A DNA stretch of 41,956 nt from a virus, in the IMG/VR virus record IMGVR_UViG_3300046675_000209, positions 1 to 41,956 of that record, one strand, 5' to 3'. The notes under the pieces were generated by a model. That model saw only the letters and a list, made by a program, of their open reading frames with translations. It did not search any database and was not told the DNA's origin. Positions 13,390-33,755 of the stretch are shown here, piece by piece. Position 1 is the first letter of the stretch. Every line of letters starts with the position of its first letter. A program made the translations under genes and the position numbers.

Positions 13390-13403
13390 CGCGAACACTT
13401 CCC
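13390..13403 (-). promoter_or_regulatory. Early motif copy A (minus: GGGAAGTGTTCGCG)
   Basis: A member of the GGAAGTG family, followed on the minus strand by ACCTAGT. It shares the GTTCGCG variant only with copy at 30595. It is the only copy not directly followed by a clear protein start; the tRNA-like genes are downstream. Confidence 0.6.
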
Positions 13404-13650
13404 GCCCGATGTGGATTGCGCGGGAAAAGCAACAGGGGCGCGGTAACGGTTCGGCAAAGGCTGAGCGCACAGCGAGGAGCGGCCCGGAGTGACGTTTCGC
13501 CGAAGGAGTGGTGAAGAGAGGCCCGTTTCACCCTTTCTCCTTATGTTCATGACGTGAGATTGGGGAGAGAGGCCTCAAACGTCACCGCTGTCGCGTTTCT
13601 GCAGGTCAGGGGCTCGGCGCTGTGGGCCGTTCACCACCCGGCGTGGCGAG

Positions 13651-13676
13651 GTTATCCACAGGCACCTGTGGATAAC
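13651..13676. repeat. Paired inverted DnaA boxes, candidate origin
   Basis: TTATCCACA (13652-13660) and its exact inverse TGTGGATAA (13667-13675) lie within perfect 12-bp arms (GTTATCCACAGG and CCTGTGGATAAC) separated by CA. TTATCCACA is the consensus DnaA-binding sequence. Two back-to-back perfect boxes are very unlikely by chance in a GC-rich genome and suggest recruitment of host DnaA. Confidence 0.7.
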
Positions 13677-13807
13677 TACACGGGGCGACTGGTGCTCACG
13701 CTATGCAGCGAAGCTTTCAGCGGCTTTCTCCGGGCCGAGGGCGGGCCGGGTGGTACTCGGGGGCCGCTACGTGCTCCCGGGCGCTCACAGGGCCGCTCAG
13801 GCATGCC

Positions 13808-13842
13808 AGTGCCCCGGCAGGATCTCTCCCGTCCGGGGCACT
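13808..13842 (-). terminator. Integrase terminator hairpin
   Basis: AGTGCCCCGG (13808-13817) and CCGGGGCACT (13833-13842) form a perfect 10-bp stem with a 15-nt loop, 15 bp after the integrase stop. No U-run; probably still a terminator in this GC-rich context. Confidence 0.65.
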
Positions 13843-13856
13843 TGGTGTCAGGCATG

Positions 13857-15692
13857 TCACATGCTGGCTAGCTCCGCCTCGCTCGCCTCGCTGTCGTCCT
13901 CGCTGTCACGGGCGGGCAGTCGCCGCCATTCGAGCGTGACTCGGTCTTCAATGGCGATGTATTTCTTACTCACCGGGTCCCGGCCCGGTCCGATGCTCAC
14001 TCCCGTGAGGAACAGGCTCAGGAAGTTGCGCCGCTCGAACACATCCCACTCGGCCCACTTTGAGCCCGGACCAATCGGGTCGGCCGCCTCGGCGTCAATG
14101 TTCGGCGCGAACCATTCCGCAGGGAGCCGGGTAACCTCCGCCGTCTGTGAGTCCAGCACGGCGAGCCGGGACACACATTCCGTCTCGTACTCCCGGTACT
14201 GCGTGATCGTCGCGCGCCACATGTCTAGCTCGTCGCGTCCCCGGTACATGCCTGCCCTACGGTCCGCTTGCAGCTCTGTGATGCTCGTACGCACGTGGTC
14301 GAGGTGGGCCCGAGTCTCGCGCTGCTCCTCGGCCACTCCGGCGAGATCCGTCTGAGCGGCGAACCGGAGCGCTGCTGCTGCCACCCATTCGCGGTCGTCG
14401 GCATCGTCCATGTCGGCGTTTGCCAGCCGTGCCCACACCCGCCGGGCGACGTGATCGTCGGCGATGTCTCGGCGCACTGAGAGGCCGCCGTGCCCCTTCG
14501 GGTTGCTGCACATGTACGCGGTGCCGTTCCGGGAGCCTTGCCCCCCTGCTTTCGCGCCGCCGTTCGTCTGGCCTACGGCGCCCCGGCACGCTCCGCACGT
14601 GGTGAACCGCCACCCGCTCAGGAGTGTTGCCTCAGCCTCCCCAGCGAGCCGTCTCTGTGGCTGTGAGCGGGCCTTGCGGAGCTCCTGGAGAGCCAGCCAC
14701 TCAGCGCCGGAAATGATGCCCGTGTGGGGTGCCAGCGGCTTTCCGGTCTCATCCCGCGCGATCACGTTGTCGTACGCGCCGCCACGCTTCACGCGCTCGA
14801 CGGCGAAACCTCCGATAGCGGGATGCCGGAGCAGCGAGCGCACGGTCTGAGGGAGCCAGCGGAAGTCGGCATCGTCCCGGAGGATGCGTCGCGCCTTGAG
14901 CTGTGCCAGCCGCTTTTCGGTACCTCGCTGCTCGGTCGCTCCGGGCGCCGTGACTCGGTCGGCTGTGAGCTTGGCCGCTATGGCGTTATCGCTCATTCCC
15001 TCGGTGCTCATCTTGATCATGTCTTTGACGGTTTCCACGCGCTCGGGGTGCTCGTCGTCGGGCACTAGCACGCTGACTGTCAGCGGTCCTTTCTTCACAC
15101 GCTCGGCCTTGAGACCGAATGGAGGTTGCGAGGAGTGCCAGCCGCCCACGGATGCGATTTGCTCTTTTGCACCCTTGAGTCGTTCCGCCTTGATATCCGA
15201 GTCCTGCTTTGCCAGGGCCGCGATAAGAGCGAAGATCGCTACGCCAATTGCATTGCTCGTGTCGAGGAACGGCTCGTGCACGGAAATGAAGCGCACGCCG
15301 TATTTTTTGAATTCTTTGTCAATTGCCAGCGCTTCGTGTGCGCCTTGGCGTGTGAGCCGGGAGAGTTCGTTGCAGATCACTACGTCGACTTCTCCGGCGC
15401 GTACCGCGTCCATCATCTTTTCGAATCCGGGCCGGATGACGGACGGGTCCCACCCGGAGCGGCCGACGTCCTTGAACGTACGCTCCGGGGTCACCTCCCA
15501 CGTAGGCTGGCCGGGCACCGTCGAGCGCGCTGCTGCTTGCGCGGTACCCGCCGCTATCTGCGCTTCTGGCGACGCTTCGGACGCGTCCTGGCGAGCCTTG
15601 GACTGCCGAGCGTAGATCGCTACGCGTACGACGTCGAGCTTGTGTGTCTCGATGGTCGAGAGGAAGGGTGACATCCCTTGATCATGTCGCAT
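13857..15692 (-). CDS. int: Large serine integrase (phiC31-type recombinase)
   Basis: A 611-residue large serine recombinase that integrates and excises the phage at attP/attB. The N-terminal resolvase domain has the nucleophilic serine in VAIYARQS (Ser31), then RTFKDVGRSGWDP, the VICNELSRLTRQG segment and ALAKQDSDIKAERLKGAKEQ. The recombinase domain follows (GGFAVERVKRGG, GIISGAEWLALQELR), then a zinc ribbon with cysteines in FTTCGACRGAV and YMCSNPKGHGG, a coiled coil (about 455-520) and a C-terminal tail including WDVFERRNFLSLFLTGVSIGPG. Length is typical of phiC31-like integrases. Start ATG at 15692 has AGGGCCCC upstream. It is monocistronic, with a candidate attP just upstream and a terminator just downstream. 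Confidence 0.95.
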   Translation of the reverse strand: MRHDQGMSPFLSTIETHKLDVVRVAIYARQSKARQDASEASPEAQIAAGTAQAAARSTVPGQPTWEVTPERTFKDVGRSGWDPSVIRPGFEKMMDAVRAGEVDVVICNELSRLTRQGAHEALAIDKEFKKYGVRFISVHEPFLDTSNAIGVAIFALIAALAKQDSDIKAERLKGAKEQIASVGGWHSSQPPFGLKAERVKKGPLTVSVLVPDDEHPERVETVKDMIKMSTEGMSDNAIAAKLTADRVTAPGATEQRGTEKRLAQLKARRILRDDADFRWLPQTVRSLLRHPAIGGFAVERVKRGGAYDNVIARDETGKPLAPHTGIISGAEWLALQELRKARSQPQRRLAGEAEATLLSGWRFTTCGACRGAVGQTNGGAKAGGQGSRNGTAYMCSNPKGHGGLSVRRDIADDHVARRVWARLANADMDDADDREWVAAAALRFAAQTDLAGVAEEQRETRAHLDHVRTSITELQADRRAGMYRGRDELDMWRATITQYREYETECVSRLAVLDSQTAEVTRLPAEWFAPNIDAEAADPIGPGSKWAEWDVFERRNFLSLFLTGVSIGPGRDPVSKKYIAIEDRVTLEWRRLPARDSEDDSEASEAELASM

Positions 15693-15726
15693 GGGGCCCT
15701 GACCTGCTCCTTCTTTGGGGAAACTG

Positions 15727-15780
15727 GTGACCTAGTTAGTTTCGCATGGACCTGAGTCCAAAGGCAACTAACTTGCTCCC
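15727..15780. other. attP: Candidate attP site
   Basis: A long imperfect dyad 35 bp upstream of the integrase start. GTTAGTT (15735-15741) pairs with AACTAAC (15766-15772) and TGGAC (15747-15751) with GTCCA (15756-15760); both pairs have exactly the same centre, at 15753/15754. Extra outer matches extend it to about 54 bp. Serine-integrase attP sites are ~50-bp imperfect palindromes with a central dinucleotide crossover and often lie beside int, as in phiC31. The central dinucleotide here is TG on the plus strand. No host attB can be seen. Confidence 0.7.
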
Positions 15781-15833
15781 TGGGGCGCGCGCCTGAGCTG
15801 CAAGGACTCACCCACAAGCCTAGGCTGGCCAGC

Positions 15834-16037
15834 ATGAAGGAGTACCGCCGGATCACCGGGTGTATGGCACGGCCAGCGGCCGACAAGCTGTGGCATGAGC
15901 TGGCCGCGTTCCGCCGTGCGACCGGCCAGCCGCGCACCTTCACCCGCCGGAAGTACGGCACCGGGTACGCCCTGTACGAGGTCACAGAAATGCCCCGCCC
16001 GGAGGATGATCCGGACGGGGCAGATGCTGCTTCCTAG
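15834..16037 (+). CDS. Small basic protein divergent from integrase
   Basis: A 67-residue plus-strand protein, MKEYRRITGCMARPAADKLW..., with a basic N-terminal two-thirds (RRATGQPRTFTRRKYG) and an acidic C-terminus (RPEDDPDGADAAS). Codons are strongly GC-biased at position three, supporting a real gene. It has no clear Shine-Dalgarno, but TAGGCT (15821-15826) would be a -10 box placing the transcript start almost at the ATG, so a leaderless message is possible. It is divergent from int with attP between them, and its last codons overlap the terminator of the opposing operon. No family recognised; a regulator or recombination accessory role is only inferred from location. Confidence 0.6.
   Translation: MKEYRRITGCMARPAADKLWHELAAFRRATGQPRTFTRRKYGTGYALYEVTEMPRPEDDPDGADAAS
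15991..16022 (-). terminator. Strong terminator for the 16865-16034 operon
   Basis: TGCCCCG and CCGGA (15991-16003) pair with TCCGG and CGGGGCA (16010-16022), giving a 12-bp interrupted stem. On the minus strand it is followed by TTTCTGT. It lies inside the C-terminal coding region of the convergent plus-strand gene. Confidence 0.7.
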
Positions 16038-16210
16038 CGTGCCGCTACTGGCTTTCCGATACGTGCTCGCCGACAGGCCCTGTACAGCCGCTGGCCGTCC
16101 TCGCAGCCTGCCGAGGGGGCCGGAGTGCTCACACACACGGGGCACGGCTTACAGGCCGGATCACGCGGGCTCAGATGGTTGAGGTACACCACCCACCATT
16201 CCGGGCTCAC
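16034..16210 (-). CDS. 58-residue Cys-rich protein
   Basis: Starts at a GTG at 16210 that overlaps the stop of the upstream gene (GTGA) and ends at 16034. The sequence begins SPEWWVVYLNHLSPRDPACK after the initiator, then CPVCV, a later cysteine pair (GCEDG and YRACRR) and a basic end RARIGKPVAAR. Four cysteines in CxxCxxC-like spacing indicate probable zinc binding. It is coupled to 16207-16539. Unknown function. Its stop region overlaps the end of the opposing plus-strand gene by four bases. Confidence 0.65.
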   Translation of the reverse strand: MSPEWWVVYLNHLSPRDPACKPCPVCVSTPAPSAGCEDGQRLYRACRRARIGKPVAAR

Positions 16211-16539
16211 AGCGATACGCCCTCGACGAATTCCTCGAAGATCCGCACTTGCTGCGCAACCTTGGCGGCCAGCGTCGGCCAGGTAGGCGCGTCTACGGTC
16301 TGTTCGAGCTTTCCGACGTAAGGCCGGTCGTAGTCGCTGGCATTCGCCTTGATCCGGTCGACGTGCCATGGCGCCGTTGCGTACCAATGCGCACCACTCT
16401 CCGAGAACACGGGGTCGGGCACAGATTGGAACGAACGCCACCCGTCCGGCAGGGACTCACAGTCGGTCGCTGAGCCCTGCCCACGGGTGGGAGAGGCAAG
16501 CGACATTCGCAGCGCCGGAGCGCTGTCCGCTTGGGTCAT
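16207..16539 (-). CDS. Hypothetical protein
   Basis: A 110-residue protein starting MTQADSAPALRMSLASPTRG. The middle region SFQSVPDPVFSESGAHWYATAPWHVDRIKA is followed by an amphipathic helix (PTWPTLAAKVAQQVRIFEEFVEGVSL). No family recognised. The ATG at 16539 has only a distant AGGA; an internal ATG at residue 12 is possible. It is in an operon with the Cys-rich protein downstream. Confidence 0.65.
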   Translation of the reverse strand: MTQADSAPALRMSLASPTRGQGSATDCESLPDGWRSFQSVPDPVFSESGAHWYATAPWHVDRIKANASDYDRPYVGKLEQTVDAPTWPTLAAKVAQQVRIFEEFVEGVSL

Positions 16540-16598
16540 TTTTCGATTGTCCTAACGGGGTGTCAGGTGCCCCGGCGAGTACCGGGCGCACTGCCAGG

Positions 16599-16835
16599 CT
16601 AACGCTCCGTGTGATCCCCGTCACCGGTTTCGCCAACTGTGTACGTCGTGTGGCCGACCTGGACGCAGCACGCCCCCGCCTCAAGGCTGTTCGCCGCATC
16701 CTCGGCCCGTGCGCTGAGTTCGTCCTTGCACAGGAAGTACCAGCCGGTCGCGAGCCGCCGGAGCTCCGCGACTAACTCGGTACGCGTGCCGCTCTCGGTC
16801 ATGTGCTGGCCGATCACCGTCTGAGTGCATGTCAT
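16599..16835 (-). CDS. Hypothetical small protein
   Basis: A 78-residue protein starting MTCTQTVIGQHMTESGTRTE. A helical centre (LVAELRRLATGWYFLCKDELSARAEDAANSLE) is followed by a short beta segment (CCVQVGHTTYTVGE). Longer starts add a doubtful MPALADTLCG. No family recognised. It is about 60 bp upstream of the next gene in the same direction, probably in the same transcription unit. Confidence 0.55.
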   Translation of the reverse strand: MTCTQTVIGQHMTESGTRTELVAELRRLATGWYFLCKDELSARAEDAANSLEAGACCVQVGHTTYTVGETGDGDHTER

Positions 16836-16919
16836 GCCACAGAGCGTATCGGCCAGCGCTGGCACCCTGGAAGGGTCTTAGGGCCCACCAAAGGTCCCGG
16901 CGGAGCCCTGTGCGCCTCT

Positions 16920-17420
16920 CTAAGCGCCTCTCGTGTACTCGCCGGGCAACTCCCCCGGTCCGGCCGTCCCCGGCTCGTCAAGGCTCAGCCTGAACCTCAG
17001 CGTGGCTACGTCGAGCTCGCCGGTATCGATGAGCTTGTGATCGTCGTGTTCCCAGTAGCGGGGTACGACGAGCTGTGCGGCGAACGGGATGGACTCCCAC
17101 GCCGGGAAGTGAACCGAGGGCTCACCCAAGGGCGCACCGCCCGCCCATTCCTGCTCGCCTAGCCAGCGGTCGTGGCCGAAGCGTCCTCGCGCTGTGACTC
17201 GCACGTGGGCGCCGCCGGTAAGCCTGCTCGCGCACAACCCGTAAGTCCGGAGTGCCTTGATCAGTTCGGAACGGTCTAGGACCACCTCGCACACGGGACC
17301 ACATTGGTACGGCTCCCAGTGCCAGGCCTGCCACCCGCTCCGGTAGTCGACGAACGCACCTTGTGAGGGATCGTCGTACCGGTAGTCGATGAAGATGTTG
17401 ATCGTAGGGTGGTAACTCAT
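16920..17420 (-). CDS. Hypothetical protein
   Basis: A 166-residue protein starting MSYHPTINIFIDYRYDDPSQ, rich in aromatic residues (RSGWQAWHWEPYQCGPVCEV, EHDDHKLIDTG). It is probably a mixed alpha/beta soluble protein. No motif recognised. It is preceded by an unusually AT-rich leader with a repeated operator-like sequence (17504-17550), so it is likely individually regulated. The ATG at 17420 is the only good start. Confidence 0.6.
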   Translation of the reverse strand: MSYHPTINIFIDYRYDDPSQGAFVDYRSGWQAWHWEPYQCGPVCEVVLDRSELIKALRTYGLCASRLTGGAHVRVTARGRFGHDRWLGEQEWAGGAPLGEPSVHFPAWESIPFAAQLVVPRYWEHDDHKLIDTGELDVATLRFRLSLDEPGTAGPGELPGEYTRGA

Positions 17421-17503
17421 ATCTATGCGCCGCTCCGCATGTTGTGGGGGGTGTACTCACCATAAGCGGACATTTGCATTCCGCCTAACATGAGCCTGCC
17501 TAA

Positions 17504-17550
17504 TGAATATCTACCGGCCGGTAGTATTCAGTACCCGCAAGTAGTATTCA
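17504..17550. promoter_or_regulatory. Operator-like cluster upstream of 16920-17420
   Basis: GTAGTATTCA occurs twice (17521-17530 and 17541-17550), exactly 20 bp apart, and an inverse TGAATATCTAC lies at 17504-17514. The first copy overlaps a perfect 14-bp palindrome CTACCGGCCGGTAG (17511-17524). Three similar half-sites on the same face of the helix suggest a transcription-factor site distinct from the 15-copy palindrome. A TTGACC at 17562-17557 on the minus strand may be a -35 box. Confidence 0.5.
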
Positions 17551-17574
17551 CCGCTAGGTCAAGGGAACGCAAAG

Positions 17575-17602
17575 AGGGGCGTAGCCCGTAGGCCACGCCC
17601 CT
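17575..17602 (-). terminator. Terminator after 17619-18215
   Basis: AGGGGCGT (17575-17582) and ACGCCCCT (17595-17602) form an 8-bp stem. On the minus strand it is followed by CTTTGCGTT. It starts 4 bases beyond palindrome copy 6. Confidence 0.65.
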
Positions 17603-17606
17603 TAGT

Positions 17607-17620
17607 GGGTAAATTTACTC
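17607..17620. repeat. Palindrome copy 6 (GGGTAAATTTACTC)
   Basis: Overlaps the TGA stop (17621-17619) of the zinc-ribbon protein gene and directly precedes its terminator. Confidence 0.9.
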
Positions 17621-18215
17621 AGTAGACCAACGTGGCGCCCGGGTACTGCGCCGCAATCTCCGCCCATATCTGACGCGTGATCGCTCCGTTGTGGCGACGC
17701 ACCCGCACACTCGGATGAATGAGCGCTCCGGCAGCCTTTACGTGGAGCTTGCCATCCCGCTTGTACGCCTCGCCGAGTGCGATGTCCCCATACCGCGCAC
17801 CCAGTCGCTCATCACACATCCGCTCGTAAGCAGCCTCAGCCTCTTTGCCCGCTTGCGTCGACAGGACTCCGACCCCTCCGCACTGGAAGCACCATCCGCC
17901 AGCAACCTTGCCCCACATCGGGTTACGGCGCTCACCGTCGCAGCGACCGCAGGTGACAGTCCCGAAGCGGATCGAGCGAGGCTTGAGCGGCGCAACCTCC
18001 GGCGCGACATCCTCGGTCACCGTCACGGCCTGCTCGATGATGCGGCTCACTCCGGTGCGGTACTCGACACCCTCAGCATCGATGATGATCACGTCGACAA
18101 CGTAGTGGTTCGGGCCGATGTTGCGGGTGACGTACTCGACGAGCGTGCCAGTGGCCACCTTGTACGTGCCGGTCTTTGTGCTGCCCGTGTGCGCCGTAAC
18201 CGTTGTGGTGACCAT
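17619..18215 (-). CDS. Zinc-ribbon hypothetical protein
   Basis: A 198-residue protein starting MVTTTVTAHTGSTKTGTYKV. After an N-terminal beta region (YVTRNIGPNHYVVDVIIIDAEG) it has a zinc-ribbon with TCGRCDGERRNP and WCFQCGGVG, then a helical, basic C-terminal domain (AAYERMCDERLGARYGD, RVRRHNGAITRQIWAEIAAQ). It may bind nucleic acid, but no family is certain. A GCAGGGAGCGGGAA ribosome site precedes the ATG. A TTGTGC-N18-TAGTGT pair lies in the hairpin just upstream. Confidence 0.7.
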   Translation of the reverse strand: MVTTTVTAHTGSTKTGTYKVATGTLVEYVTRNIGPNHYVVDVIIIDAEGVEYRTGVSRIIEQAVTVTEDVAPEVAPLKPRSIRFGTVTCGRCDGERRNPMWGKVAGGWCFQCGGVGVLSTQAGKEAEAAYERMCDERLGARYGDIALGEAYKRDGKLHVKAAGALIHPSVRVRRHNGAITRQIWAEIAAQYPGATLVY

Positions 18216-18254
18216 TTCCCGCTCCCTGCTGTGTGTGTCGTACTAACAGGCCAA

Positions 18255-18284
18255 ACACTAAGGGGGCTGCGCCCGTAGGCACAA
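18255..18284 (-). promoter_or_regulatory. Candidate promoter for 17619-18215
   Basis: On the minus strand, TTGTGC (18284-18279), 18 bp, TAGTGT (18260-18255). The palindrome copy 7 is 10 bp upstream of the -35. It overlaps a terminator stem, so the element is compact. The -35 is weak compared with 19078 and 19405. Confidence 0.4.
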
Positions 18285-18291
18285 CCCCCTT
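18260..18291 (-). terminator. Terminator after 18313-19017
   Basis: AAGGGGG (18260-18266) and CCCCCTT (18285-18291), with an inner GCGCCCGTAGGC loop. It begins just after palindrome copy 7. Confidence 0.65.
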
Positions 18292-18294
18292 GGT

Positions 18295-18308
18295 GGGTAA
18301 ATTTACCC
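18295..18308. repeat. Palindrome copy 7 (GGGTAAATTTACCC)
   Basis: A perfect copy 4 bases after the TAG stop of 18313-19017 and before its terminator. Confidence 0.95.
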
Positions 18309-18312
18309 GGCT

Positions 18313-19017
18313 CTACTCCGCAGCCTCGGCCGGAACGACTCGGAACGTGCTCGTCGGCAGGTCGCGCCCCTCGAACTCCCGGGCACCCTTGAGCGCGTTC
18401 TCGTGACTCTGGGACCAGCGAACGACGCTGTACGTGTACTGCGGCCCGGCCTCTTCCTTGTCTGCCTCGCGGTCAAAGGTGCTGGCCAGACTGTCGGAGT
18501 CGGCCAGCCATGCACGCACGGCGCCCTTGCGATCCAGCGGCGCATCCTCCGTATGGGATCCGAGCCACCATTCCTCGCCACCCTCGCCGAGCAAGTACAC
18601 GACGTCGAAGAACTTGGAGTCGCTGCGCACTGCAATCCGGCCAGCCCGGACAGCCGCGATGAACCGGACTTTCTCCGCCCGGTGCCCGAATGCCTGCTGC
18701 CGGTGAAGCTTGGCCGTCGCCCACATATCCTCGCGCTGCTCGACCGCATACGTGTAGATCGCGTTCGCGCTGTTACGCGTGCTCACCGTTCCGTCCGGGT
18801 GGGTGACTGTCGTCTTGCGTGCCATTTCGTCCGCTCCCTCGCTGTCAATCGACCGCAGCACGTTACCACACATGTCCAGGTTTTCACCGTAAGCGTCGAA
18901 TTCGACCATGTACCGGTCCGGGCCACGCTCGCCCGGTCCCTTCACGGTCCCTCGCCACCCCTTGGCTTCCACCACGGGTCCGACGTACTCGACTCGGTCA
19001 CCCGCGCTGTGCGTCAT
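18313..19017 (-). CDS. Hypothetical two-part protein
   Basis: A 234-residue protein. Residues 1-63 (MTHSAGDRVEYVGPVVEAKG...) look like a small KOW/SH3-type beta barrel (WRGTVKGPGERGPDRYMVEF). The rest (MARKTTVTHPDGTVSTRNSA...) is a separate domain with YTYAVEQREDMWATAKLHRQ and a second region ending FRVVPAEAAE. An internal ATG at residue 65 has a strong GAGGGAGCGGACGAA ribosome site, so a shorter second product may be made. No function recognised. It has its own TTGACA promoter and a terminator. Confidence 0.65.
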   Translation of the reverse strand: MTHSAGDRVEYVGPVVEAKGWRGTVKGPGERGPDRYMVEFDAYGENLDMCGNVLRSIDSEGADEMARKTTVTHPDGTVSTRNSANAIYTYAVEQREDMWATAKLHRQQAFGHRAEKVRFIAAVRAGRIAVRSDSKFFDVVYLLGEGGEEWWLGSHTEDAPLDRKGAVRAWLADSDSLASTFDREADKEEAGPQYTYSVVRWSQSHENALKGAREFEGRDLPTSTFRVVPAEAAE

Positions 19018-19048
19018 GCTGCCCTCCCTTGCTCTCGTACTGTGGGCA

Positions 19049-19078
19049 AAGCTATGGGCCCGGCGGAGTGCATGTCAA
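19049..19078 (-). promoter_or_regulatory. sigma70-type promoter for 18313-19017
   Basis: On the minus strand TTGACA (19078-19073), 18-bp spacer, TAGCTT (19054-19049), ending 31 bp before the ATG. Palindrome copy 8 lies exactly 19 bp upstream of the -35 box. Confidence 0.6.
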
Positions 19079-19094: not shown

Positions 19095-19097
19095 AGT

Positions 19098-19405: not shown

Positions 19406-19424
19406 CCGTTCCGGCGGATCCAGT

Positions 19425-19807: not shown

Positions 19808-20629
19808 TTAAGCGGCGAACGCCAACTCGGCCACGGCCAGCGCACCGGCGAGGTACAGCTCCCGGAAGCGCTCTTTGCCCTTGCAGCGAATGACGGTGAT
19901 CCGGGACTCGGCCACGCCCAGCGCCTCGGCGATCTCCGCGTCACGTTCCATGTGGGGCACCGGCGAGATGCCGTAGGTCGCGCGGAGCGTGAAAGCCTGC
20001 TGACGGCCCATACGAGCCAGCGTGGCGTGCACGGCGTCCCGGATTGCCCGGCGGCGTTCCTGGTTCATGTCAGAGGCTTCTATGAGCTCTGCGGGCATCC
20101 CCAGGGTGTCGGCCAGCATGTCGGCCAGCGTCGCGCCATCCCCGCTCGGGGCCGGTGCGTCGAGGTGGGTGACTCCCTGCCATGCCATGCGCGCTGCGTT
20201 GGCCATGTCCGGTGTCATGCGCTCGCGACCGAGGACACCGTCCGGTCGGACCGCTTCCCGCTCAGCCGCGTACGGGTCTCCCCCGGTCTCGGCGAGGCAC
20301 TGCTCAAACCGGCGTGACGTCGACTCGCTGACACCCTGCCGAGTCTCGGCCCGTCGGTGCTCACCCATGTCGCCGCTCACGTACCGGTCGACGTATGAGA
20401 AGAACTCCCCCACCGATCCGCCCCGGAAGGTCTCAAGGCACTTCCAGACGCGTATCCGGCCTACCTGTGCCAGGTCCTCGGCGAGGTCTGCGTCGCGCGC
20501 CCCGCTGGACGTCGCGTGCTTGCTGGCGAGCTGGCCGATGCGCGGTTCGAGTGCGGTGAGTACGTCGGCGATGGCGCCGAGGTCGTTTGCTGCTGCTGCG
20601 TTGATCTGCTCGATCGTGATGTCGATCAT
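19808..20629 (-). CDS. Sigma-factor-like transcription protein
   Basis: A 273-residue protein starting MIDITIEQINAAAANDLGAI. Residues about 48-95 (LAEDLAQVGRIRVWKCLETF, then EFFSYVDRYVSGDMGEHRRA) resemble sigma-70 region 2 (AxDLxQEGxIxLWxxxxxFD...FxxYxxxxIxxxM), which binds core polymerase and the -10. Residues about 228-256 (DAEIAEALGVAESRITVIRC onward) form a clear sigma region 4-like HTH. The middle is long and acidic (VTHLDAPAPSGDGATLADML). A start at 20782 would run through the promoter and is rejected; the ATG at 20629 has CGGAG upstream. A copy of the early motif lies 41 bp upstream, so the gene may be in its own regulon. It might instead be a DNA-binding protein that only borrows the sigma fold. 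Confidence 0.75.
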   Translation of the reverse strand: MIDITIEQINAAAANDLGAIADVLTALEPRIGQLASKHATSSGARDADLAEDLAQVGRIRVWKCLETFRGGSVGEFFSYVDRYVSGDMGEHRRAETRQGVSESTSRRFEQCLAETGGDPYAAEREAVRPDGVLGRERMTPDMANAARMAWQGVTHLDAPAPSGDGATLADMLADTLGMPAELIEASDMNQERRRAIRDAVHATLARMGRQQAFTLRATYGISPVPHMERDAEIAEALGVAESRITVIRCKGKERFRELYLAGALAVAELAFAA

Positions 20630-20667
20630 GGGAAAGCTCCGTTTTCTCAGGTGGTGTCTTGGTGGGG

Positions 20668-20683
20668 GACCAAGCACTTCCTG
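20668..20683 (-). promoter_or_regulatory. Early motif copy B (minus: CAGGAAGTGCTTGG)
   Basis: Reads CAGGAAGTGCTTGGTC on the minus strand, about 52 bp from motif to the sigma-like gene's ATG. The usual CTAG is absent; CCCCCACCAAG follows. Confidence 0.6.
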
Positions 20684-21001
20684 AGCGGAGCGGCCACGCG
20701 CATGACCTAGGTCACATGCAGTTCGGGACACAAGCGCGCCCCACCAGGAAGTAATCCCGATGGGGCGTGGCCACGCATCCATCGTTGGATGTGGCGTGAA
20801 CGTATGCCTGTGGTGGAGGTGAATGGAAGGTGAACGGAGTGTGCGTTTTTGCAGGTCAGAGACGTAAAGTGATCTTCACAAATCACGTTCCATGGTCATC
20901 CGGCGCTATCGGCAGCGAATCTAAAGGCGCAGCGAGGAGGTAGGACGTCCTAATCCACGGGTGGCCGGTAACCGGCATGCGACGGCGCGTCAGAATAAAG
21001 T
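20684..21001. other. Intergenic region upstream of sigma-like gene
   Basis: About 320 bp without a supported gene. It contains the perfect palindrome TGACCTAGGTCA (20702-20713), a GCGCCCC/GGGGCG hairpin (about 20728-20767), a second dyad built on GCCACGCATCCA, the sequence GCGTTTTTGCAGGTCAG (20843-20859) repeated from 13593, and GTGAT...ATCAC near 20879-20895. This is likely another control region; a 37-codon plus-strand frame from a GTG near 20831 was not considered convincing. Confidence 0.45.
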
Positions 21002-21319
21002 TCACGCAACGAGGTGGGTAAAATTACCCACCGTGTCATCCGTGACGCCGAGCGACCGAAGGTACTCCCAGGGGTCACGGTCTGCTTTCGTTACATTACA
21101 GAGCGCACATGCGGGCCAGAGATTCGAGAGATCGTCCGTACCTGAACGGGCCAGCGGCCAGAAGTGCTCAACGTGCTCCCATGGCGCCCCGCAGTAGACG
21201 CACGCCCACGCGTCCCATTCGGCCCACATTGCGTAGATCTCGTCACGTGTGGGAGTGATGCGCGTCCGCTTCCGGCGGTAGAACACACCACTCCCCCGAC
21301 GCTTACGCGGCAGCGCCAT
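21002..21319 (-). CDS. HNH endonuclease
   Basis: A 105-residue protein starting MALPRKRRGSGVFYRRKRTR. The HNH core is CVYCGAPWEHVEHFWPLARS, then DDLSNLWPACALCNVTKADRDP, with two CxxC pairs and the His in HVEHFWPL (HxxH instead of the commonest DH). The ATG at 21319 lies within the end of the polymerase gene (17-bp overlap). The C-terminal codons VGNFTH contain a palindrome variant (copy 10). It is one of four HNH/Endo VII-like genes in the genome and may be a free-standing homing-type nuclease linked to the polymerase. Confidence 0.85.
   Translation of the reverse strand: MALPRKRRGSGVFYRRKRTRITPTRDEIYAMWAEWDAWACVYCGAPWEHVEHFWPLARSGTDDLSNLWPACALCNVTKADRDPWEYLRSLGVTDDTVGNFTHLVA
21016..21029. 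repeat. Palindrome copy 10, variant (GGGTAAAATTACCC)
   Basis: The only copy within a reading frame (codons GGT AAT TTT ACC of the HNH gene) and the only one with a changed central base, breaking the perfect symmetry. Confidence 0.75.
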
Positions 21320-23161: not shown

Positions 23162-23194
23162 GGGGCGAGGGGGAACCAGACACTCCCTCGCCCC
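23162..23194 (-). promoter_or_regulatory. Hairpin with early motif copy C before polymerase
   Basis: GGGGCGAGGG (23162-23171) and CCCTCGCCCC (23185-23194) are a perfect 10-bp inverted repeat. On the minus strand the same segment has GGGAGTGTCTGGTTCC, a divergent member of the GGAAGTG family, and ends one base before the polymerase AGGAGG ribosome site. Palindrome copy 11 is 7 bp upstream. Terminator, promoter and operator signals are superimposed. Confidence 0.55.
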
Positions 23195-25728: not shown

Positions 25729-25756
25729 GGTTTTCTCCTCTCGACATCCCTAGGGG

Positions 25757-25770
25757 GCAAGCACTTCCTG
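25757..25770 (-). promoter_or_regulatory. Early motif copy D (minus: CAGGAAGTGCTTGC)
   Basis: Followed on the minus strand by CCCCTAGGGA. It is about 41 bp upstream of the primase-helicase TTG start. Confidence 0.65.
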
Positions 25771-28350: not shown

Positions 28351-28377
28351 GCGGTGAATCCTTGTCTCTGATTCAGT

Positions 28378-28391
28378 GGGTAAATTTACCG
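28378..28391. repeat. Palindrome copy 12 (GGGTAAATTTACCG)
   Basis: Lies between early motif copy E and the start of the candidate RDF gene, so a bound protein would block the transcript just after initiation. Confidence 0.9.
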
Positions 28392-28410
28392 ACTGCGCTC
28401 TCTCTGGGGA

Positions 28411-28424
28411 CCAGGCACTTCCCC
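28411..28424 (-). promoter_or_regulatory. Early motif copy E (minus: GGGGAAGTGCCTGG)
   Basis: Located two bases after the TAG of 28427-28804 and 61 bp upstream of the RDF-like start. Followed by TCCCCAGAG; no CTAG. Confidence 0.55.
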
Positions 28425-28426
28425 TG

Positions 28427-28804: not shown

Positions 28805-28850
28805 GCGGGCCCCAATCTCCGGTGTTTTCTTCTCTCGGCTGTGCTAGGAA

Positions 28851-28864
28851 CCAAGCACTTCCTG
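28851..28864 (-). promoter_or_regulatory. Early motif copy F (minus: CAGGAAGTGCTTGG)
   Basis: Followed on the minus strand by TTCCTAGCAC. The start of 28427-28804 is about 47 bp downstream. One of the best matches to the consensus. Confidence 0.65.
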
Positions 28865-28880
28865 GGGCCCCTCCGGGCAC

Positions 28881-28925
28881 GAAAACGCCCCGGACAGCGG
28901 ACCAAGTGGCCAGCCATCCGGGGCG
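28881..28925 (-). terminator. Intrinsic terminator of the RNA ligase operon
   Basis: CGCCCCGGA (28886-28894) pairs with TCCGGGGCG (28917-28925); on the minus strand it is followed by TTTTC. It ends the 30555-28939 operon just before early motif copy F. Confidence 0.8.
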
Positions 28926-28938
28926 AGTTGGGGCAGTG

Positions 28939-29493
28939 CTACGCGCTGGCCTCCCACTTGCCAGCGTCGTTCGCGTCAAGGGTCACCTTGAACACGTTTC
29001 GAGTCTGAGTGTGGAACACGCACACTCCCTCCGGGCCCCTGAATCCAGGAGCGGCCACGGAACCGCTGATCCGCAGCTTGGACAGCTCAATGCGGATGCG
29101 CGTCTCACTGAACATGCCCTCGTACAGCACCGGCACCGGGCCCACAGGGACGCCCTCGACGACCGCGCGGAGCTCCGCGTGCGCTGCCGTGTTGAACAGC
29201 GAGAAACGGCGCTCAGCGAGCCCGTAGCCACGCTGAATGCCCCTCCCCCACCACTCGCCGAAGTGCACGCCGGGACCGAGCAGCGACCCGAGCGCCGACG
29301 CATTCTCGTACACCCATCGGGCAAACCCGTAGTTGTCTGCGGCCGGAGTGATGAGCCGGTTGCGAGACTGAGCAGCAACGGCGACGCCGGACGAGTCAAC
29401 GTGGATCGCCGCATTGGTGCCGTCGAGCTTTTCCGTGATCACGATGTCTCGGAAAAGGCGCTTGGTCTTGGGCCACGGGACGAATTCGGTCAT
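28939..29493 (-). CDS. RNA ligase-like nucleotidyltransferase
   Basis: A 184-residue protein of the covalent nucleotidyltransferase superfamily. The nucleotidylation motif is ITEKLDGTN with Lys22 as the likely AMP-accepting residue; further motifs are HFGEWWGRGIQRGY, PEGVCVFH and the Lys in FKVTLD. This is the adenylation domain of RNA ligase 2-like proteins with no extra domain, so it is short but complete. Such ligases repair nicked RNA (for example tRNA cleaved by host defences), which is relevant because this phage carries tRNA-like genes. The ATG overlaps the next upstream gene's stop. Confidence 0.8.
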   Translation of the reverse strand: MTEFVPWPKTKRLFRDIVITEKLDGTNAAIHVDSSGVAVAAQSRNRLITPAADNYGFARWVYENASALGSLLGPGVHFGEWWGRGIQRGYGLAERRFSLFNTAAHAELRAVVEGVPVGPVPVLYEGMFSETRIRIELSKLRISGSVAAPGFRGPEGVCVFHTQTRNVFKVTLDANDAGKWEASA

Positions 29494-29684
29494 CGCTGCT
29501 GCGCCTTCCCTGCGAACTCGGTGGTGACGTCCTCGGCGATCCCGATGCGGTGAACGCTGAACGTGGCACCCGGATACCGGCCGCGTAGCCCACCGAGAAT
29601 CGCCCTCGTGTGCCGCTTGTCGTTGCCCGCGCGGTGCTCGCTGTACCCGGTCCGGTACGTGGTGGTGATGATGAACTCAGGCAT
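29490..29684 (-). CDS. Hypothetical small protein
   Basis: A 64-residue protein, MPEFIITTTYRTGYSEHRAG, continuing NDKRHTRAILGGLRGRYPG and ending EFAGKAQQR. A beta-alpha-beta fold is plausible. The stop overlaps the ligase start (ATGA), so it is tightly coupled. It is 4 bp downstream of the nuclease gene's stop. Unknown function. Confidence 0.65.
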   Translation of the reverse strand: MPEFIITTTYRTGYSEHRAGNDKRHTRAILGGLRGRYPGATFSVHRIGIAEDVTTEFAGKAQQR

Positions 29685-29688
29685 GCGC

Positions 29689-30555
29689 TCACGCCCTTCG
29701 CTGAGTGCCGGTGATCAGGGCTCCGCCGGATCGTGCCAGCGGTTTTCCGAGAACTTCCTTGGACAGCGTCCGGTCCCAGTCGAAGATCTGACGCAGTGCC
29801 AGGAACACGGCGAACACTTCGCGATCGATGCGCACCGGCTTGAACGCCCACTCATCCGGCGTGATGTGCAGCACCGCAGCGCCGTCAAACTCCGGCATGG
29901 GCAGGTCGTTGCCCTCGGCGTCGATCAGCTTGTCGGCGTTCGCATATGCGCTCATCTGTAGCGCGACTTCCGGATACGTCGCCTTGGACGTTTTCCAGTC
30001 GACGATGAGCGTCACCGGCTCGCCGGACCGGTCCGGGGTGATGCGGCCAGCGTCGTCCACCCACACACGGAGGATGGCGTCGAACGATCCGGCGTACTCG
30101 TGCGTGTCGGACCATGCGATGTCCTCGGCGCGTACGAGCTCCGGATTCACAGCGGCCAGGAACTCGGCGAAGTGCTCGCGGTACGGGTCCATGTCCGGGT
30201 GCACGCGTACTGCCCAGTCTCCGCGCGGTGTGCGGGTGGTCAGGTTGCCCTCGCCCCGGATCATCCGCTCGAACATGTCATGCGCTGTGCTGCCGATGTC
30301 TGAGCGGATCTTGGTGTACCGGCGCGCGGCACCCTTGAGGTAGTCGACTGCACCCTGCCGGTCACGCGCTGCCATCTGCTCGACGAACGGCAGGGAATCC
30401 ACGGCGAGCTCCGCAACCATCTTGGCATTCCAGAAAGCCAGGAACGGCTTAGCCAGCATGCCGATTACCGACGTCACGCCGGGCACGGTGACCCGGGTTT
30501 CATGGTCGACGTAAAAGCGCGAACCAGCGCGCTGCACTGTACGAACCTTGGGCAT
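29689..30555 (-). CDS. PD-(D/E)XK exonuclease, RecB/Cas4-like
   Basis: A 288-residue nuclease. Marks of the PD-(D/E)XK fold are the early DIGSTAHDMFERMIRGE helix with His, EYAGSFDAIL (catalytic Asp), LIVDWKTSK (D/E-x-K) and the QxxxY-like ALQMSAYANA, in the right order and spacing. It would process DNA ends during replication or recombination. The ATG at 30555 has GGAAGGGGCTCACCGA as ribosome site, with a variant early motif 37 bp upstream. It heads an operon with the small protein and RNA ligase. Confidence 0.85.
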   Translation of the reverse strand: MPKVRTVQRAGSRFYVDHETRVTVPGVTSVIGMLAKPFLAFWNAKMVAELAVDSLPFVEQMAARDRQGAVDYLKGAARRYTKIRSDIGSTAHDMFERMIRGEGNLTTRTPRGDWAVRVHPDMDPYREHFAEFLAAVNPELVRAEDIAWSDTHEYAGSFDAILRVWVDDAGRITPDRSGEPVTLIVDWKTSKATYPEVALQMSAYANADKLIDAEGNDLPMPEFDGAAVLHITPDEWAFKPVRIDREVFAVFLALRQIFDWDRTLSKEVLGKPLARSGGALITGTQRRA

Positions 30556-30756
30556 TCGGTGAGCCCCTTCCAGCTAGGTACGGCTGTTAGGGGGCGCGAA
30601 CACTTCCCAGTGGGGCGAGTGGTGAATGTGGGCCCGAAACTCCTTTCTACCTAATCCCTATACGTGAAAACCCAAAAGAGCCTCACATTCACCACCCGGC
30701 GCGGGAATCGCCACTCTCCGGCGCTGCGAGGCGCTGTGCGCCGTTCTGCGGGCATG
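30556..30756. other. Control region upstream of exonuclease operon
   Basis: About 200 non-coding bp. GTGGTGAATGTG (30613-30624) and CACATTCACCAC (30691-30702) are a perfect 12-bp inverted repeat. Between them is a TATACGTGA-containing AT-rich core. The segment 30608-30665 is similar to 13503-13555, and both lie beside the GTTCGCG variant of the early motif. It is probably a regulated promoter/operator. Confidence 0.55.
30595..30608 (-). promoter_or_regulatory. Early motif copy G (minus: GGGAAGTGTTCGCG)
   Basis: Followed by CCCCCTAACAG on the minus strand and 39 bp upstream of the exonuclease start. Same variant as copy A at 13390. Confidence 0.6.
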
Positions 30757-30793
30757 AAAAAGCCCCTCCGGGCCCGGGGGACCAAGAGGGGCT
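30757..30793 (-). terminator. Intrinsic terminator after 30815-31531
   Basis: AGCCCCTC (30761-30768) and GAGGGGCT (30786-30793) form the stem; on the minus strand a run of five T follows. Good rho-independent terminator. Confidence 0.85.
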
Positions 30794-30814
30794 GTAAGGC
30801 GCTCAGAGGGGCAC

Positions 30815-31531
30815 TCAGGGGCGCGCAGGGGTCAATCCGAGGGCGCGCATGCAGTTCGCATGGTTCGGCCCGTCCGGGCTGCATTTGAACTGCCCGTCAG
30901 TCGTCCGCTCAAGCTGCTCGCGCTCGTCGAGCCGGTACTTACGCCCGCACCGGTAGCAGTACAGCGTCTCAGCGCTGGCCAGCGTCAGATCAGCGATAAG
31001 GGCCGTCAGGTTGCTGAACACGTCCGCCGGAATGGTCATGGCCGTATACCGGTCGACGTCCGTGAGCATCTGCTGTACGTCGCCCAAGTGCAGCAGCGCG
31101 CCCGCAATGGTCAAGCGTCCCGGCTCGCCACTCTCGACCGGTGCTTGCTCGGCAGCGTCCGCGATGGCGGCATGCTCGGCGCAGTAGTCGTCTCGGTCGA
31201 GCGGAGGATTCGAGCACGGCTCGCCTGGACCCTCCCACTCACACTGTGGCGTGAAACCCTCGGGTGGCAGTGCCAGCGCGAGCACCTTTGCCCCTGCGTC
31301 GCCCTTGACCGGTACCCGCAAGTCCACCCGGTCCGCCTCCTCGATCAGCCGCGCGGCGAGCTTCCGTGCATCCGCCGGAGACATGTCCGAGCGCAACGGC
31401 CGGTCATGCTGCGGACCCTGCTCGTCCACCCACCCGGACACCGTGACGTACTGCTGCCGCTTCCCGCTCGCCGTGCCGGTGATCCACCCTCGAATGTTGC
31501 CGATCCTGAACCCGTACTCAGCTTTCGCCAT
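30815..31531 (-). CDS. Hypothetical zinc-finger protein with duplicated N-domain
   Basis: A 238-residue protein. The N-terminal domain (RGWITGTASGKRQQYVTVSG to MSPADARKLAARLIEEADRV, about 14-68) is related to the neighbouring 31518-31823 protein. The middle has CEWEGPGEPCSNPP with DDYCAEHA, and the C-terminus has YCYRCGRKYRL and a late NHANC, so two zinc sites are likely. Function unknown. The ATG at 31531 overlaps the upstream gene by 14 bp. The last codons precede a good terminator. Confidence 0.65.
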   Translation of the reverse strand: MAKAEYGFRIGNIRGWITGTASGKRQQYVTVSGWVDEQGPQHDRPLRSDMSPADARKLAARLIEEADRVDLRVPVKGDAGAKVLALALPPEGFTPQCEWEGPGEPCSNPPLDRDDYCAEHAAIADAAEQAPVESGEPGRLTIAGALLHLGDVQQMLTDVDRYTAMTIPADVFSNLTALIADLTLASAETLYCYRCGRKYRLDEREQLERTTDGQFKCSPDGPNHANCMRALGLTPARP

Positions 31532-31823
31532 TTCCCTTGTCTCCCTCTGTGAGTCCGAGCAGGTCAGCCAGCCGACCCTTTGGCGCCTCGGGCACGGGTT
31601 CCGGCGCTGACTCCCTGCCCCCGTCGGCGTAGTCCGCCATTTTGATCAGCCCGGCCGCCCACTTGCGCGCCTCGGCCGGAGTCATTTCCAGACGGACCGG
31701 TCGGCCAGCGTCGGCAGCGTCCGTGATCTCGCCGTTGAGTACCACCAACGTGGATCGCCCCCTGTCCCACCCGCTAGTGCCGTGCCCGGTGATCTTGCCC
31801 GTGCGTACTTTCTTCACTGGCAT
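31518..31823 (-). CDS. Hypothetical protein, paralogue of neighbour
   Basis: A 101-residue protein, MPVKKVRTGKITGHGTSGWD..., whose beta region and helix MTPAEARKWAAGLIKMADYAD match MSPADARKLAARLIEEADRVD in the downstream gene, as after a tandem duplication. The C-terminus is acidic and low-complexity (EPVPEAPKGRLADLLGL). ATG at 31823 has GGGGAGGTAAC. Unknown function. Confidence 0.7.
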   Translation of the reverse strand: MPVKKVRTGKITGHGTSGWDRGRSTLVVLNGEITDAADAGRPVRLEMTPAEARKWAAGLIKMADYADGGRESAPEPVPEAPKGRLADLLGLTEGDKGNGES

Positions 31824-31844
31824 GTTACCTCCCCTAAGCAGGAA

Positions 31845-31872
31845 GGGGGCCCGGAGTGTTTCCCGAGCCCCC
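31845..31872 (-). terminator. Terminator after 31886-33007
   Basis: GGGGGC (31845-31850) and GCCCCC (31867-31872) form the outer stem; inner CGG/CCG pairs may extend it. It lies 14 bp after the stop codon. Confidence 0.6.
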
Positions 31873-31885
31873 GTCTGACGGTTGA

Positions 31886-33007
31886 TTAGATCTGTGCAGC
31901 CAGCGCGACGAGTTCCATCATCTTGGCCTTGAGGGCCGCCCGGTCCTCGTCGCTGAGTTCCCTGGCTGCCTTGACTGCCGCAGTCAGCGAACGCTCCGCT
32001 GATTGGATGTCAGCCGCGATGCGCTCCTGAACGGTCGCAGTCTTGATCTCCTCGACCTTTTCGGCCGCCTCGCTGTCACCCTCCTCGGCCTTGGCCTCAA
32101 GCTCCTTAAGCTTCGCGTTCTTGGCGCGCTGGTTCTCGGCCATCAGCTCGCGCTTGCTCAGTCGGGGGATGTCGTAGAACGTGAACACGGCCTCAGACGG
32201 CGTGAGCTCCGGGTGAGCGGCCAGCACCGGACCGTACAGCTCCTTGACCTCATCCGCCGAGGACGGATCGTCGAGCTGCCGGACGTATCCGACGAGCACG
32301 TCCGAGAACTGGTTACGGACCGACTGAGAGAACTTGTCGACGAGCGACTTGGCGTGATCGGCGTCACCCTCGGCAGCGAGCACGGTGCGCGCCTGCTCGT
32401 ACATGTCCTTGCGAGCCTTGAGCGTGGCCGGATCGGCACTCTTCAAGTCCGGGACGCCATCCTTAGTGATGATCCGGCGCTGGGCGTCGAGCAGCATTTC
32501 AGCGGCCTGCCGCGCGGTCTGCGACGTCTTGACGTGAAGCCTGACACCGTCGACGACGACGCCCGCACCCGCCTTGACTCGGTCCTCGACACCATCGAAC
32601 TTGGTGTAGTCGGCCGCCTCAGCCTCAGCCTTGGCCTTGAGCACCATTGCAGCCGTGGGGCGGTCGGTCTTGCCGGTGCGCTTGCTTTCCAGCGGCGACG
32701 CAGCCTGAGCCTGGCTCGCCGCCTTGAGCTCCGCCCGCATGCCCTGCTTGACCTTCGCCCACGCCGTGTCGCCGTGGCGCCCACGAGTCGGAAGCGAGCT
32801 GATCAGATCGTTGGTTTCCTTGTTGAGCTCGGCCAGCCCCTCCGCATTCTCGGCCTCGGCCAGCGACTTGGCGCGCTCGATGTTCGCCGTGATCTGCTCG
32901 ACCACCTCGGCGTGAGGGTCGGCCGGTGCCGCCTGCTGCTCGTCCTCGCCCAGCACGTCGGCAAGGCTCGTGTCGATTTCCTCGGTCGTGTTCTTCTTGG
33001 CGGCCAT
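31886..33007 (-). CDS. Coiled-coil protein, possible repressor candidate
   Basis: A 373-residue protein rich in Ala, Glu and Lys, starting MAAKKNTTEEIDTSLADVLG. It is mainly helical; residues about 20-110 and 290-373 look coiled-coil, while the centre (about 145-290) is more globular, with VDGVRLHVKTSQTARQAAEM and SEAVFTFYDIPRLSKREL. No motif is conclusive. It has its own TAGACA-N18-TAGTCT promoter with palindrome copy 13 six bp upstream and a terminator, so it is expressed separately. Autoregulation by the palindrome and helical composition would suit a phiC31 c-like repressor, but direct sequence evidence for DNA binding is absent. Confidence 0.6.
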   Translation of the reverse strand: MAAKKNTTEEIDTSLADVLGEDEQQAAPADPHAEVVEQITANIERAKSLAEAENAEGLAELNKETNDLISSLPTRGRHGDTAWAKVKQGMRAELKAASQAQAASPLESKRTGKTDRPTAAMVLKAKAEAEAADYTKFDGVEDRVKAGAGVVVDGVRLHVKTSQTARQAAEMLLDAQRRIITKDGVPDLKSADPATLKARKDMYEQARTVLAAEGDADHAKSLVDKFSQSVRNQFSDVLVGYVRQLDDPSSADEVKELYGPVLAAHPELTPSEAVFTFYDIPRLSKRELMAENQRAKNAKLKELEAKAEEGDSEAAEKVEEIKTATVQERIAADIQSAERSLTAAVKAARELSDEDRAALKAKMMELVALAAQI

Positions 33008-33037
33008 TTTGTCTCCCTGTGTTGTGGTGGTGACGTC

Positions 33038-33067
33038 AGACTAGGGGATGATCAAGCCCGGTGTCTA
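33038..33067 (-). promoter_or_regulatory. sigma70-type promoter for 31886-33007
   Basis: TAGACA (33067-33062), 18-bp spacer, TAGTCT (33043-33038) on the minus strand; 30 bp to the ATG. Palindrome copy 13 lies 6 bp upstream of the -35. Confidence 0.55.
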
Positions 33068-33073
33068 CCTGCT

Positions 33074-33087
33074 GAGTAAATTTACCC
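33074..33087. repeat. Palindrome copy 13 (GAGTAAATTTACCC)
   Basis: Just upstream of the promoter of 31886-33007 and just downstream of the kinase terminator. Confidence 0.9.
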
Positions 33088-33110
33088 ACCGTGGCGTGTC
33101 GCCAGACATG

Positions 33111-33153
33111 CAAAATCCCCCGCCTCCAGCCGCGATGGCCAGTGACGGGGGAT
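33111..33153 (-). terminator. Terminator of the dNMP kinase gene
   Basis: ATCCCCCG (33115-33122) and CGGGGGAT (33146-33153); minus-strand tail TTTTG. It starts 4 bp after the kinase stop. Confidence 0.8.
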
Positions 33154-33157
33154 GTCG

Positions 33158-33703
33158 CTACGCGTTCAGGAACTCGACCAACCCATCGGCGTGCGCCCGG
33201 AGTTGAGCCAGCGATCCAGTGTTCTCGATGATGCCGTCCGCGAGATGCGAGCCGAGCGCCGTTTCCGACTCATGCGCCATGTCGGCCACGCCGGGGCGTT
33301 CGATCCGCAGCACGGTGAAGCCAGCGCGGCGCATGGCATGCAGCTCGTTGGGGTACCGGACGTCAGTCACGACGATGGGGCCGCGCACCGTCACGGCTCG
33401 CCGGAGCAGCGCACGGACCCAAAACGCGCCGTCGAGATCGCGCACCCGCTGGCCCATCTCTTGGAGCAGGCGCCGCACTTCCGGGTATGTGTCCTTGGCG
33501 TACTCCCAACCGACGTCGGCAACCAGCGGTGCGAGCCGGACATAGACCCGGTACCCCGTGGGAACGATCGGGTTCACGGCGAGCGCCATTTCCTTGAGCG
33601 GGTCGGCGAACGCCAGCCGCGTGTATCCGTGGGCGCCGACAAGCTGTTCGGCGAAGCTGTCCTTCCCGCTACGCGCCCTGCCCATGAGTGCAATGTTCGG
33701 CAT
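33158..33703 (-). CDS. Deoxynucleoside monophosphate kinase
   Basis: A 181-residue P-loop kinase. The N-terminus MPNIALMGRARSGKDSFAEQL has the Walker A GRARSGKDS; ARLAFADPLKEMAL-like and VVTDVRYPNELHAMRRAG segments are characteristic of T4 gp1-like dNMP kinases, which phosphorylate dNMPs to supply DNA synthesis. The ATG at 33703 has GGAGGGGGCATTTCC; the longer start at 33745 would pass through the early motif. It is the first gene of the early block in transcription order. Confidence 0.88.
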   Translation of the reverse strand: MPNIALMGRARSGKDSFAEQLVGAHGYTRLAFADPLKEMALAVNPIVPTGYRVYVRLAPLVADVGWEYAKDTYPEVRRLLQEMGQRVRDLDGAFWVRALLRRAVTVRGPIVVTDVRYPNELHAMRRAGFTVLRIERPGVADMAHESETALGSHLADGIIENTGSLAQLRAHADGLVEFLNA

Positions 33704-33741
33704 GGAAATGCCCCCTCCGGTCGAGTTACCGACTAGAGGGG

Positions 33742-33755
33742 GCAAGCACTTCCTG
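33742..33755 (-). promoter_or_regulatory. Early motif copy H (minus: CAGGAAGTGCTTGC)
   Basis: Followed by CCCCTCTAGTC on the minus strand, 39 bp before the kinase ATG. It begins two bases after the holin-like gene's stop, so it marks the lysis/early boundary. Confidence 0.65.

Follow-up and report, generated by a model that had tools for sequence, protein, structure and literature searches.

A repeated motif in a phiC31-like phage genome matches the phiC31 lytic promoters by position and covaries with a phage-encoded sigma factor

Promoters of unusual sequence, active in lytic growth only, have been known in phage phiC31 since the 1990s, and other phages, including Bacillus phage SPO1 with gp28 and T4 with gp55, encode sigma factors that redirect the host RNA polymerase. 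Here we analyse a repeated motif in the IMG/VR virus record IMGVR_UViG_3300046675_000209 (41,956 bp, the whole of which we refer to as the window), a Streptomyces phage genome of the phiC31 (Lomovskayavirus-like) group. Its primase shares 60–64% identity with the primases of phiC31, TG1, Heather and Rowa, and the phiC31 gene order is kept (kinase, c-type repressor, exonuclease, recombination directionality factor (RDF), primase, polymerase, sigma-like protein, integrase and tRNA), the record being circularly permuted relative to phiC31 with late genes flanking both of its ends. We propose, with a probability of roughly 85%, that the motif is the core lytic promoter of this phage and is read by host RNA polymerase with a phage sigma factor, a homologue of phiC31 gp12 (19808–20629), whose own gene it also drives.

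The eight copies of the motif reported by the original prediction, which was made from the sequence alone, are all present on the coding (minus) strand and oriented with transcription, and they are far beyond chance: the pattern GGRAGTGYYYG had nine minus-strand matches and no plus-strand ones, against 0.65 matches expected and a maximum of three in 100 shuffles, the ninth match (37718) lying within a gene and scoring at noise level in a weight matrix. When each copy was left out in turn and the matrix built from the other seven, the omitted copy headed the ranking of its strand every time but one (the polymerase copy came second), and no plus-strand position reached the scores of the omitted copies. 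With a matrix of all eight, the copies scored 18.7–27.1 bits, followed by a site at 35640 (16.7 bits) and then by background, which peaks at 8.6 bits on the same strand and does not exceed 9.8 bits on the other. The first G of the motif lies 37–72 bp before the start codon at seven protein genes, as had been predicted. The invariant part is GGRAGTG-Y-Y-Y-G-NNN-CC, whilst the 3' TAG of the predicted consensus is found in some copies only (tRNA, gp2-like, primase) and is shifted in the kinase copy.

The site at 35640 is a ninth, weaker copy absent from the prediction, 34 bp before a virion gene that starts at 35606, in a stretch that also codes for the end of a conserved protein. It is probably a genuine promoter copy, because phiC31 and TG1 place their own versions of the motif before a tail gene (12975 and 12301, respectively). 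Together with the copy at 13390, which lies before tRNA-His and the genes for packaging and the head, it contradicts the earlier claim that none of the copies is in the late region.

phiC31 possesses another repeat, GGTTGCCGACTnCCTTAC / CCGGGTTGCCGACTnCCTTAC, with between nine and fourteen copies according to the threshold set, which precedes the exonuclease, gp2, RDF, primase, polymerase, gp12 (sigma), gp13, gp25, kinase and tRNA-Thr genes, and nearly all genes with the window motif have phiC31 orthologues preceded by this repeat. The phiC31 copy before tRNA-Thr (TCAGGTTGCCGACAACCTTCA) is exactly the feature annotated as 'promoter, late lytic' in GenBank X91149 (174–194), which identifies the motif family as one of promoters; judged by its position, the window copy at 13390 is the equivalent of this late promoter. 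The window motif and the phiC31 lytic promoters lie before the same orthologous genes on the same strand, at similar distances from the start codon, and both are compact (19–21 bp) with early and late copies, but their letters differ: GGTTGCCGACTnCCTTAC in phiC31 and GGRAGTGYYYGnnnCC in the window are alike only in the GG start and the C-rich CT(T/A) end. A direct search of phiC31, TG1 and Shawty with the window letters found no orthologous match, and membership in the phiC31 promoter family is therefore by position and architecture, not by sequence identity. As the letters differ from phage to phage within the family, this mismatch reduces sequence identity and not positional orthology; relatives with dialects intermediate between the window and phiC31 letters also exist. 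We regard it as close to certain, from this comparison of sequences, that the motif is a promoter, one that belongs with the phiC31 lytic promoters as a diverged dialect. The kinship with phiC31 promoters, raised as a possibility in the prediction, was thus borne out by gene set and by the annotated promoter, but not in the letters, nor in the restriction to early genes. GenBank records X76288 and AJ006589 contained no promoter features, nor did X12865, whose features around the repressor gene are limited to repeats, a ribosome-binding site and a terminator.

As the dialects are too different for a direct letter search, motifs were discovered separately in each phage, without reference to the window letters. 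The main comparison comprised 45 phiC31-like phages with all genes available, and about 60 related phages and prophages were compared in total, including 15 Streptomyces prophage loci. Each of the 45 phages has its own dialect (for example GGAAGTGCTTGCGCTCAAG, CGTAAACCCTTGCGCTCTA, GGCAACCCTTGCGCTCC, GGAATCCCCTCCGCTC, GGCATTCGACTCACTAGA, GGCAATCCACTCGCTAAC, CTTAACCAACTCACTCAC and GTCACCGACTCCCTT), which stands before the exonuclease and sigma genes in all 45, the kinase and RDF in 44 each, the primase in 43 and the polymerase in 18. A sigma homologue is present in every relative whose record extends to the site.

Motif distance followed sigma protein distance (Spearman 0.67) across the 45 phages, with far lower values for the kinase (0.20), exonuclease (0.17), RDF (0.14), primase (0.23) and polymerase (0.23), and the partial correlation for sigma given all others was 0.65 (p=0.0005, the lowest value that 2,000 permutations allow). 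Among 21 representatives with sigmas more than 35% apart, sigma retained 0.62 and the others reached at most 0.14; the repressor, which evolves faster than sigma, reached 0.27; and in a screen of 11 ortholog groups sigma stood alone at 0.69, the next group being at 0.30. In the 15 prophage loci, which lay outside the earlier analysis, matrix fit likewise followed sigma similarity (mean rho 0.46), compared with 0.15 for the primase, 0.12 for the polymerase, 0.16 for the exonuclease and 0.06 for the RDF in the same test (sigma vs. primase, Wilcoxon p=0.0008). Individual pairs of phages exhibited the same relationship. L024 and L003 (relatives are given by our L numbers) differ by 27% in flanking genes and by 66% in sigma and have unlike dialects, whilst L050 and L052, with differences of 49% in flanking genes and 41% in sigma, have similar ones; L007 shares 55% identity with the window in the polymerase protein and 72% in sigma, and carries sigma and polymerase sites nearly identical to those of the window. 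By sigma segment, with region boundaries taken from our reading of the alignment to RpoD, covariation was 0.70 in regions 2.4–3.0, 0.62 in region 3, 0.61 in the N-terminus and 0.40–0.46 in region 4, where the partial correlation was about zero. These results strongly suggest that the phage's own sigma reads the motif, in support of the earlier suggestion to test the phage sigma-like protein, and a phage-encoded reader would explain how promoter and sigma came to change in step whilst the genes around them were exchanged between phages.

The window sigma matches Sigma70_r2 (PF04542) at 24.8 bits, above the Pfam cut-off of 24, and the profile of its family aligns to RpoD/HrdB over regions 2 to 4 (residues 18–260, RpoD E 1.2e-8). 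Its AlphaFold model has a pLDDT of 86, and the best Foldseek matches in the PDB are sigma factors (probability 1.00); whole-chain template modelling (TM) scores are low, which a different arrangement of the domains in the free model would account for. By its region 2, its regions 3–4 and its predicted fold, it is a sigma-70-family protein. Like SPO1 gp28 and T4 gp55, it pairs a small phage sigma-family protein with a phage-specific promoter class, but it differs from them in that its gene lies under its own promoter class, the promoter apparently lacks a -35 box and the family comprises more than 20 dialects. The covariation points to gp12, so far annotated as a sigma factor by similarity only; our search, which covered little of the phiC31 transcription literature, found no published account of what reads the phiC31 lytic promoters, or of gp12. 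In several public records the sigma factor is labelled 'RNA polymerase subunit alpha', 'DNA binding protein' or 'hypothetical' (coordinates 13336–14139 in L069, Shady; 13535–14548 in L065, Heather; 13457–14461 in L066, Sebastisaurus). A single-subunit RNA polymerase was considered as an alternative reader, and no annotated large protein is one.

The spacing to the start codons constrains how the motif can be read. At the polymerase site the motif starts 37 bp before the ATG with AGGAGG in between, leaving ca. 20 bp after the motif, including the Shine-Dalgarno sequence, and at the primase site it starts 40 bp before the start codon. If the motif were a -35 box, transcription would start at or beyond the Shine-Dalgarno sequence or the start codon, so that the 3' end of the motif is best placed as the -10 element, with the 5' end near -28; on these spacings the motif must itself extend from roughly -28 to -10, and a -35 box is lacking. 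Known promoter classes were tried as well. A housekeeping sigma-70/HrdB pair (TTGACA-N17-TATAAT-like) matched once in 20 kb, at no motif copy, with 2.1 matches expected, in line with the earlier remark that the sequence of the motif is unlike the usual -35/-10 boxes. The sigma-54 pattern TGGCAC-N5-TTGCW gave 13 weak matches against 17 expected, and its sole overlap with a copy is on the opposite strand; both of these readings were rejected. Extracytoplasmic function (ECF) sigma promoters have the form GGAAC ... CGTC. Their GGAA-like 5' box resembles that of the window motif, but the distance to the 3' element is ca. 8 bp shorter in the window and the phage sigma has RpoD-type regions 2 to 4 rather than the ECF layout; an ECF promoter was rejected by geometry.

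In the mechanism we propose, host RNA polymerase with the phage sigma-70-family factor would read a compact element of ca. 19 bp (GGRAGTGYYYGnnnCC, often ending CTAG), the 3' end acting as -10 and the 5' end lying near -28, mainly through sigma regions 2.4–3. Once made, the sigma would amplify itself and switch on the kinase, exonuclease, RDF, primase and polymerase genes, and late genes would be switched on via the copies at 13390 and, probably, 35640; in lysogens the c-type repressor would probably shut the system off via its operators. An unlikely alternative is a phage activator that binds the motif as its box, similar to a MotA box, and aids the host HrdB polymerase whilst the sigma-like protein acts elsewhere. 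Activator boxes can likewise be compact and repeated, and the motif is unlike a normal -35/-10 pair, but sigma alone covaries with it in the ortholog screen, most strongly in the promoter-contacting regions 2.4–3, and the polymerase and primase sites leave no room for a separate downstream -10.

Less probable still is an RNA leader element, that is, a signal for translation, processing or antitermination instead of a promoter: the constant placement on the coding strand shortly before the start codons of protein genes would suit one, yet one copy precedes an untranslated tRNA gene, its phiC31 counterpart is an annotated promoter and the covariation with sigma would be left unexplained. The most improbable role of all appears to be that of an operator, bound by the phage repressor or by some other DNA-binding protein. 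The operators of temperate phages are also repeated and intergenic, but the motif is strand-specific and not palindromic, and repressor distance barely tracks motif distance. Moreover, the window contains a separate palindrome, GGTAAATTTACC, at fifteen sites, mostly flanked as TGGGTAAATTTACCCA, and encodes a repressor homologue (373 aa; Phage_Repressor_c, PF25746, E 3e-50); these palindromes probably replace the conserved inverted repeats (CCTACTCACGTGAGTAG) of the phiC31 c repressor, whose sites are annotated in X91149.

Several points weigh against the view that the motif is a promoter read by the phage sigma. The sigma gene is preceded by the motif in every phage, which suggests positive feedback but also calls for a different first trigger, and the sequence upstream of this gene yielded no host-type promoter. 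Where shared ancestry shapes the distances, Mantel tests can make a correlation look more significant than it is; sigma also evolves faster than most of the controls, although the repressor, faster still, carries little signal. For the phage of the window itself, the evidence consists of sequence comparison and a structure model.

All 45 phages retain a gap of 340–816 bp that separates the polymerase gene from the sigma gene; the gap of the window (20630–21302) holds an HNH-like reading frame and an operator-like palindrome. When the gap was searched for shared k-mers, palindromes of the repressor type and short repeats were all that emerged, and no clear host promoter was among them. Among the motif-bearing genes, a dyad, TGTGA-N6-TCACA, lies upstream of the sigma promoter only. 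The consensus for Streptomyces coelicolor Crp is given as GTG(N)6GNCAC (Gao et al. 2012, as cited in PMC10033298). Of the 45 regions upstream of sigma, 22 contain this pattern, compared with 0.6 in shuffles and with 0–3 of 44–45 for the other genes, and the longer dyad, with at most two mismatches, is present in 27 of 46 phages at a spacing of 6 against 0–8 at other spacings; the window copy is imperfect. Carriers include L001–L005, L007, L008, L016, L022, L027, L038 and L044. The dyad centre lies upstream of the -10 element by ca. 32.5 bp in phiC31, TG1 and Shawty, 43.5 bp in the window and close relatives and 52.5–54.5 bp in most others (unambiguous groups only, as automatic anchoring misplaced some -10 positions), groups that differ by steps of about one helical turn. 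A reasonable reading is that the dyad provides a host cyclic AMP (cAMP)-Crp input to the lytic master switch; it could instead serve another regulator.

The wider picture would be of one Streptomyces phage family holding more than 20 diverging sigma–promoter pairs, in which compact promoters without a -35 box, read via regions 2.4–3, change along with a self-amplifying sigma, and host Crp also gates the sigma's own promoter and so ties the lytic switch to the cAMP state of the host; we put this forward tentatively, at somewhat under even odds. If true, the many phage sigmas with matched, seemingly mutually distinct promoters would be useful as orthogonal expression parts for Streptomyces, and the phage family a natural experiment on how sigma regions 2.4–3 choose DNA sequences.

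Table 1 Coordinates of features in the window. The higher coordinate of each promoter copy is its 5' G.
Feature	Sequence	Position	Strand	Remarks
Phage sigma factor, phiC31 gp12 homologue, 273 aa		19808..20629	-	Proposed reader; Sigma70_r2, phrog_15865, RpoD/HrdB profile, fold, covariation
Promoter copy	GGAAGTGTTCGCGACCTAG	13384..13402	-	142 bp before tRNA-His; phiC31 late promoter equivalent by position
Promoter copy	GGAAGTGCTTGGTCCCCCA	20663..20681	-	Phage sigma gene, 52 bp to ATG
Promoter copy	GGGAGTGTCTGGTTCCCCC	23169..23187	-	DNA polymerase, 37 bp to ATG
Promoter copy	GGAAGTGCTTGCCCCCTAG	25750..25768	-	Primase-helicase, 40 bp to TTG
Promoter copy	GGAAGTGCCTGGTCCCCAG	28404..28422	-	RDF homologue, 72 bp to ATG; operator-like palindrome between (28379)
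Promoter copy	GGAAGTGCTTGGTTCCTAG	28844..28862	-	phrog_572 gene, 58 bp
Promoter copy	GGAAGTGTTCGCGCCCCCT	30589..30607	-	Cas4-like exonuclease, 52 bp
Promoter copy	GGAAGTGCTTGCCCCCTCT	33735..33753	-	Deoxynucleoside monophosphate kinase, 50 bp
Ninth, weaker candidate	GGCAGTGTTTGCCTACTAG	35622..35640	-	Late region, 34 bp before virion gene
Crp-like dyad	TGTGACCTAGGTCATG	20701..20716	-	Upstream of sigma promoter; GTG(N)6GNCAC with one mismatch
Operator-like palindromes	GGTAAATTTACC	3874, 5368, 9307, 9777, 12963, 17608, 18296, 19099, 19426, 21017, 23203, 28379, 33075, 38485, 41908
c-type repressor homologue		31886..33007

Downstream of the late promoter, the leader that runs up to the tRNA (13260–13390, minus strand) is conserved in six phages (the window, L001, L002, L003, L016 and L018), with the pattern GTAGAG..GGG...ACCGCGCACC and, further on, TCTCTCCC.GGTTGAGCG, which is kept despite very different promoter dialects; L016 and L018 have two tandem promoter boxes at this leader. 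Among the genes after the tRNA, the reading frame at 12453–12977 (minus strand) matches an enoyl-CoA hydratase-like phage family, an unusual cargo.

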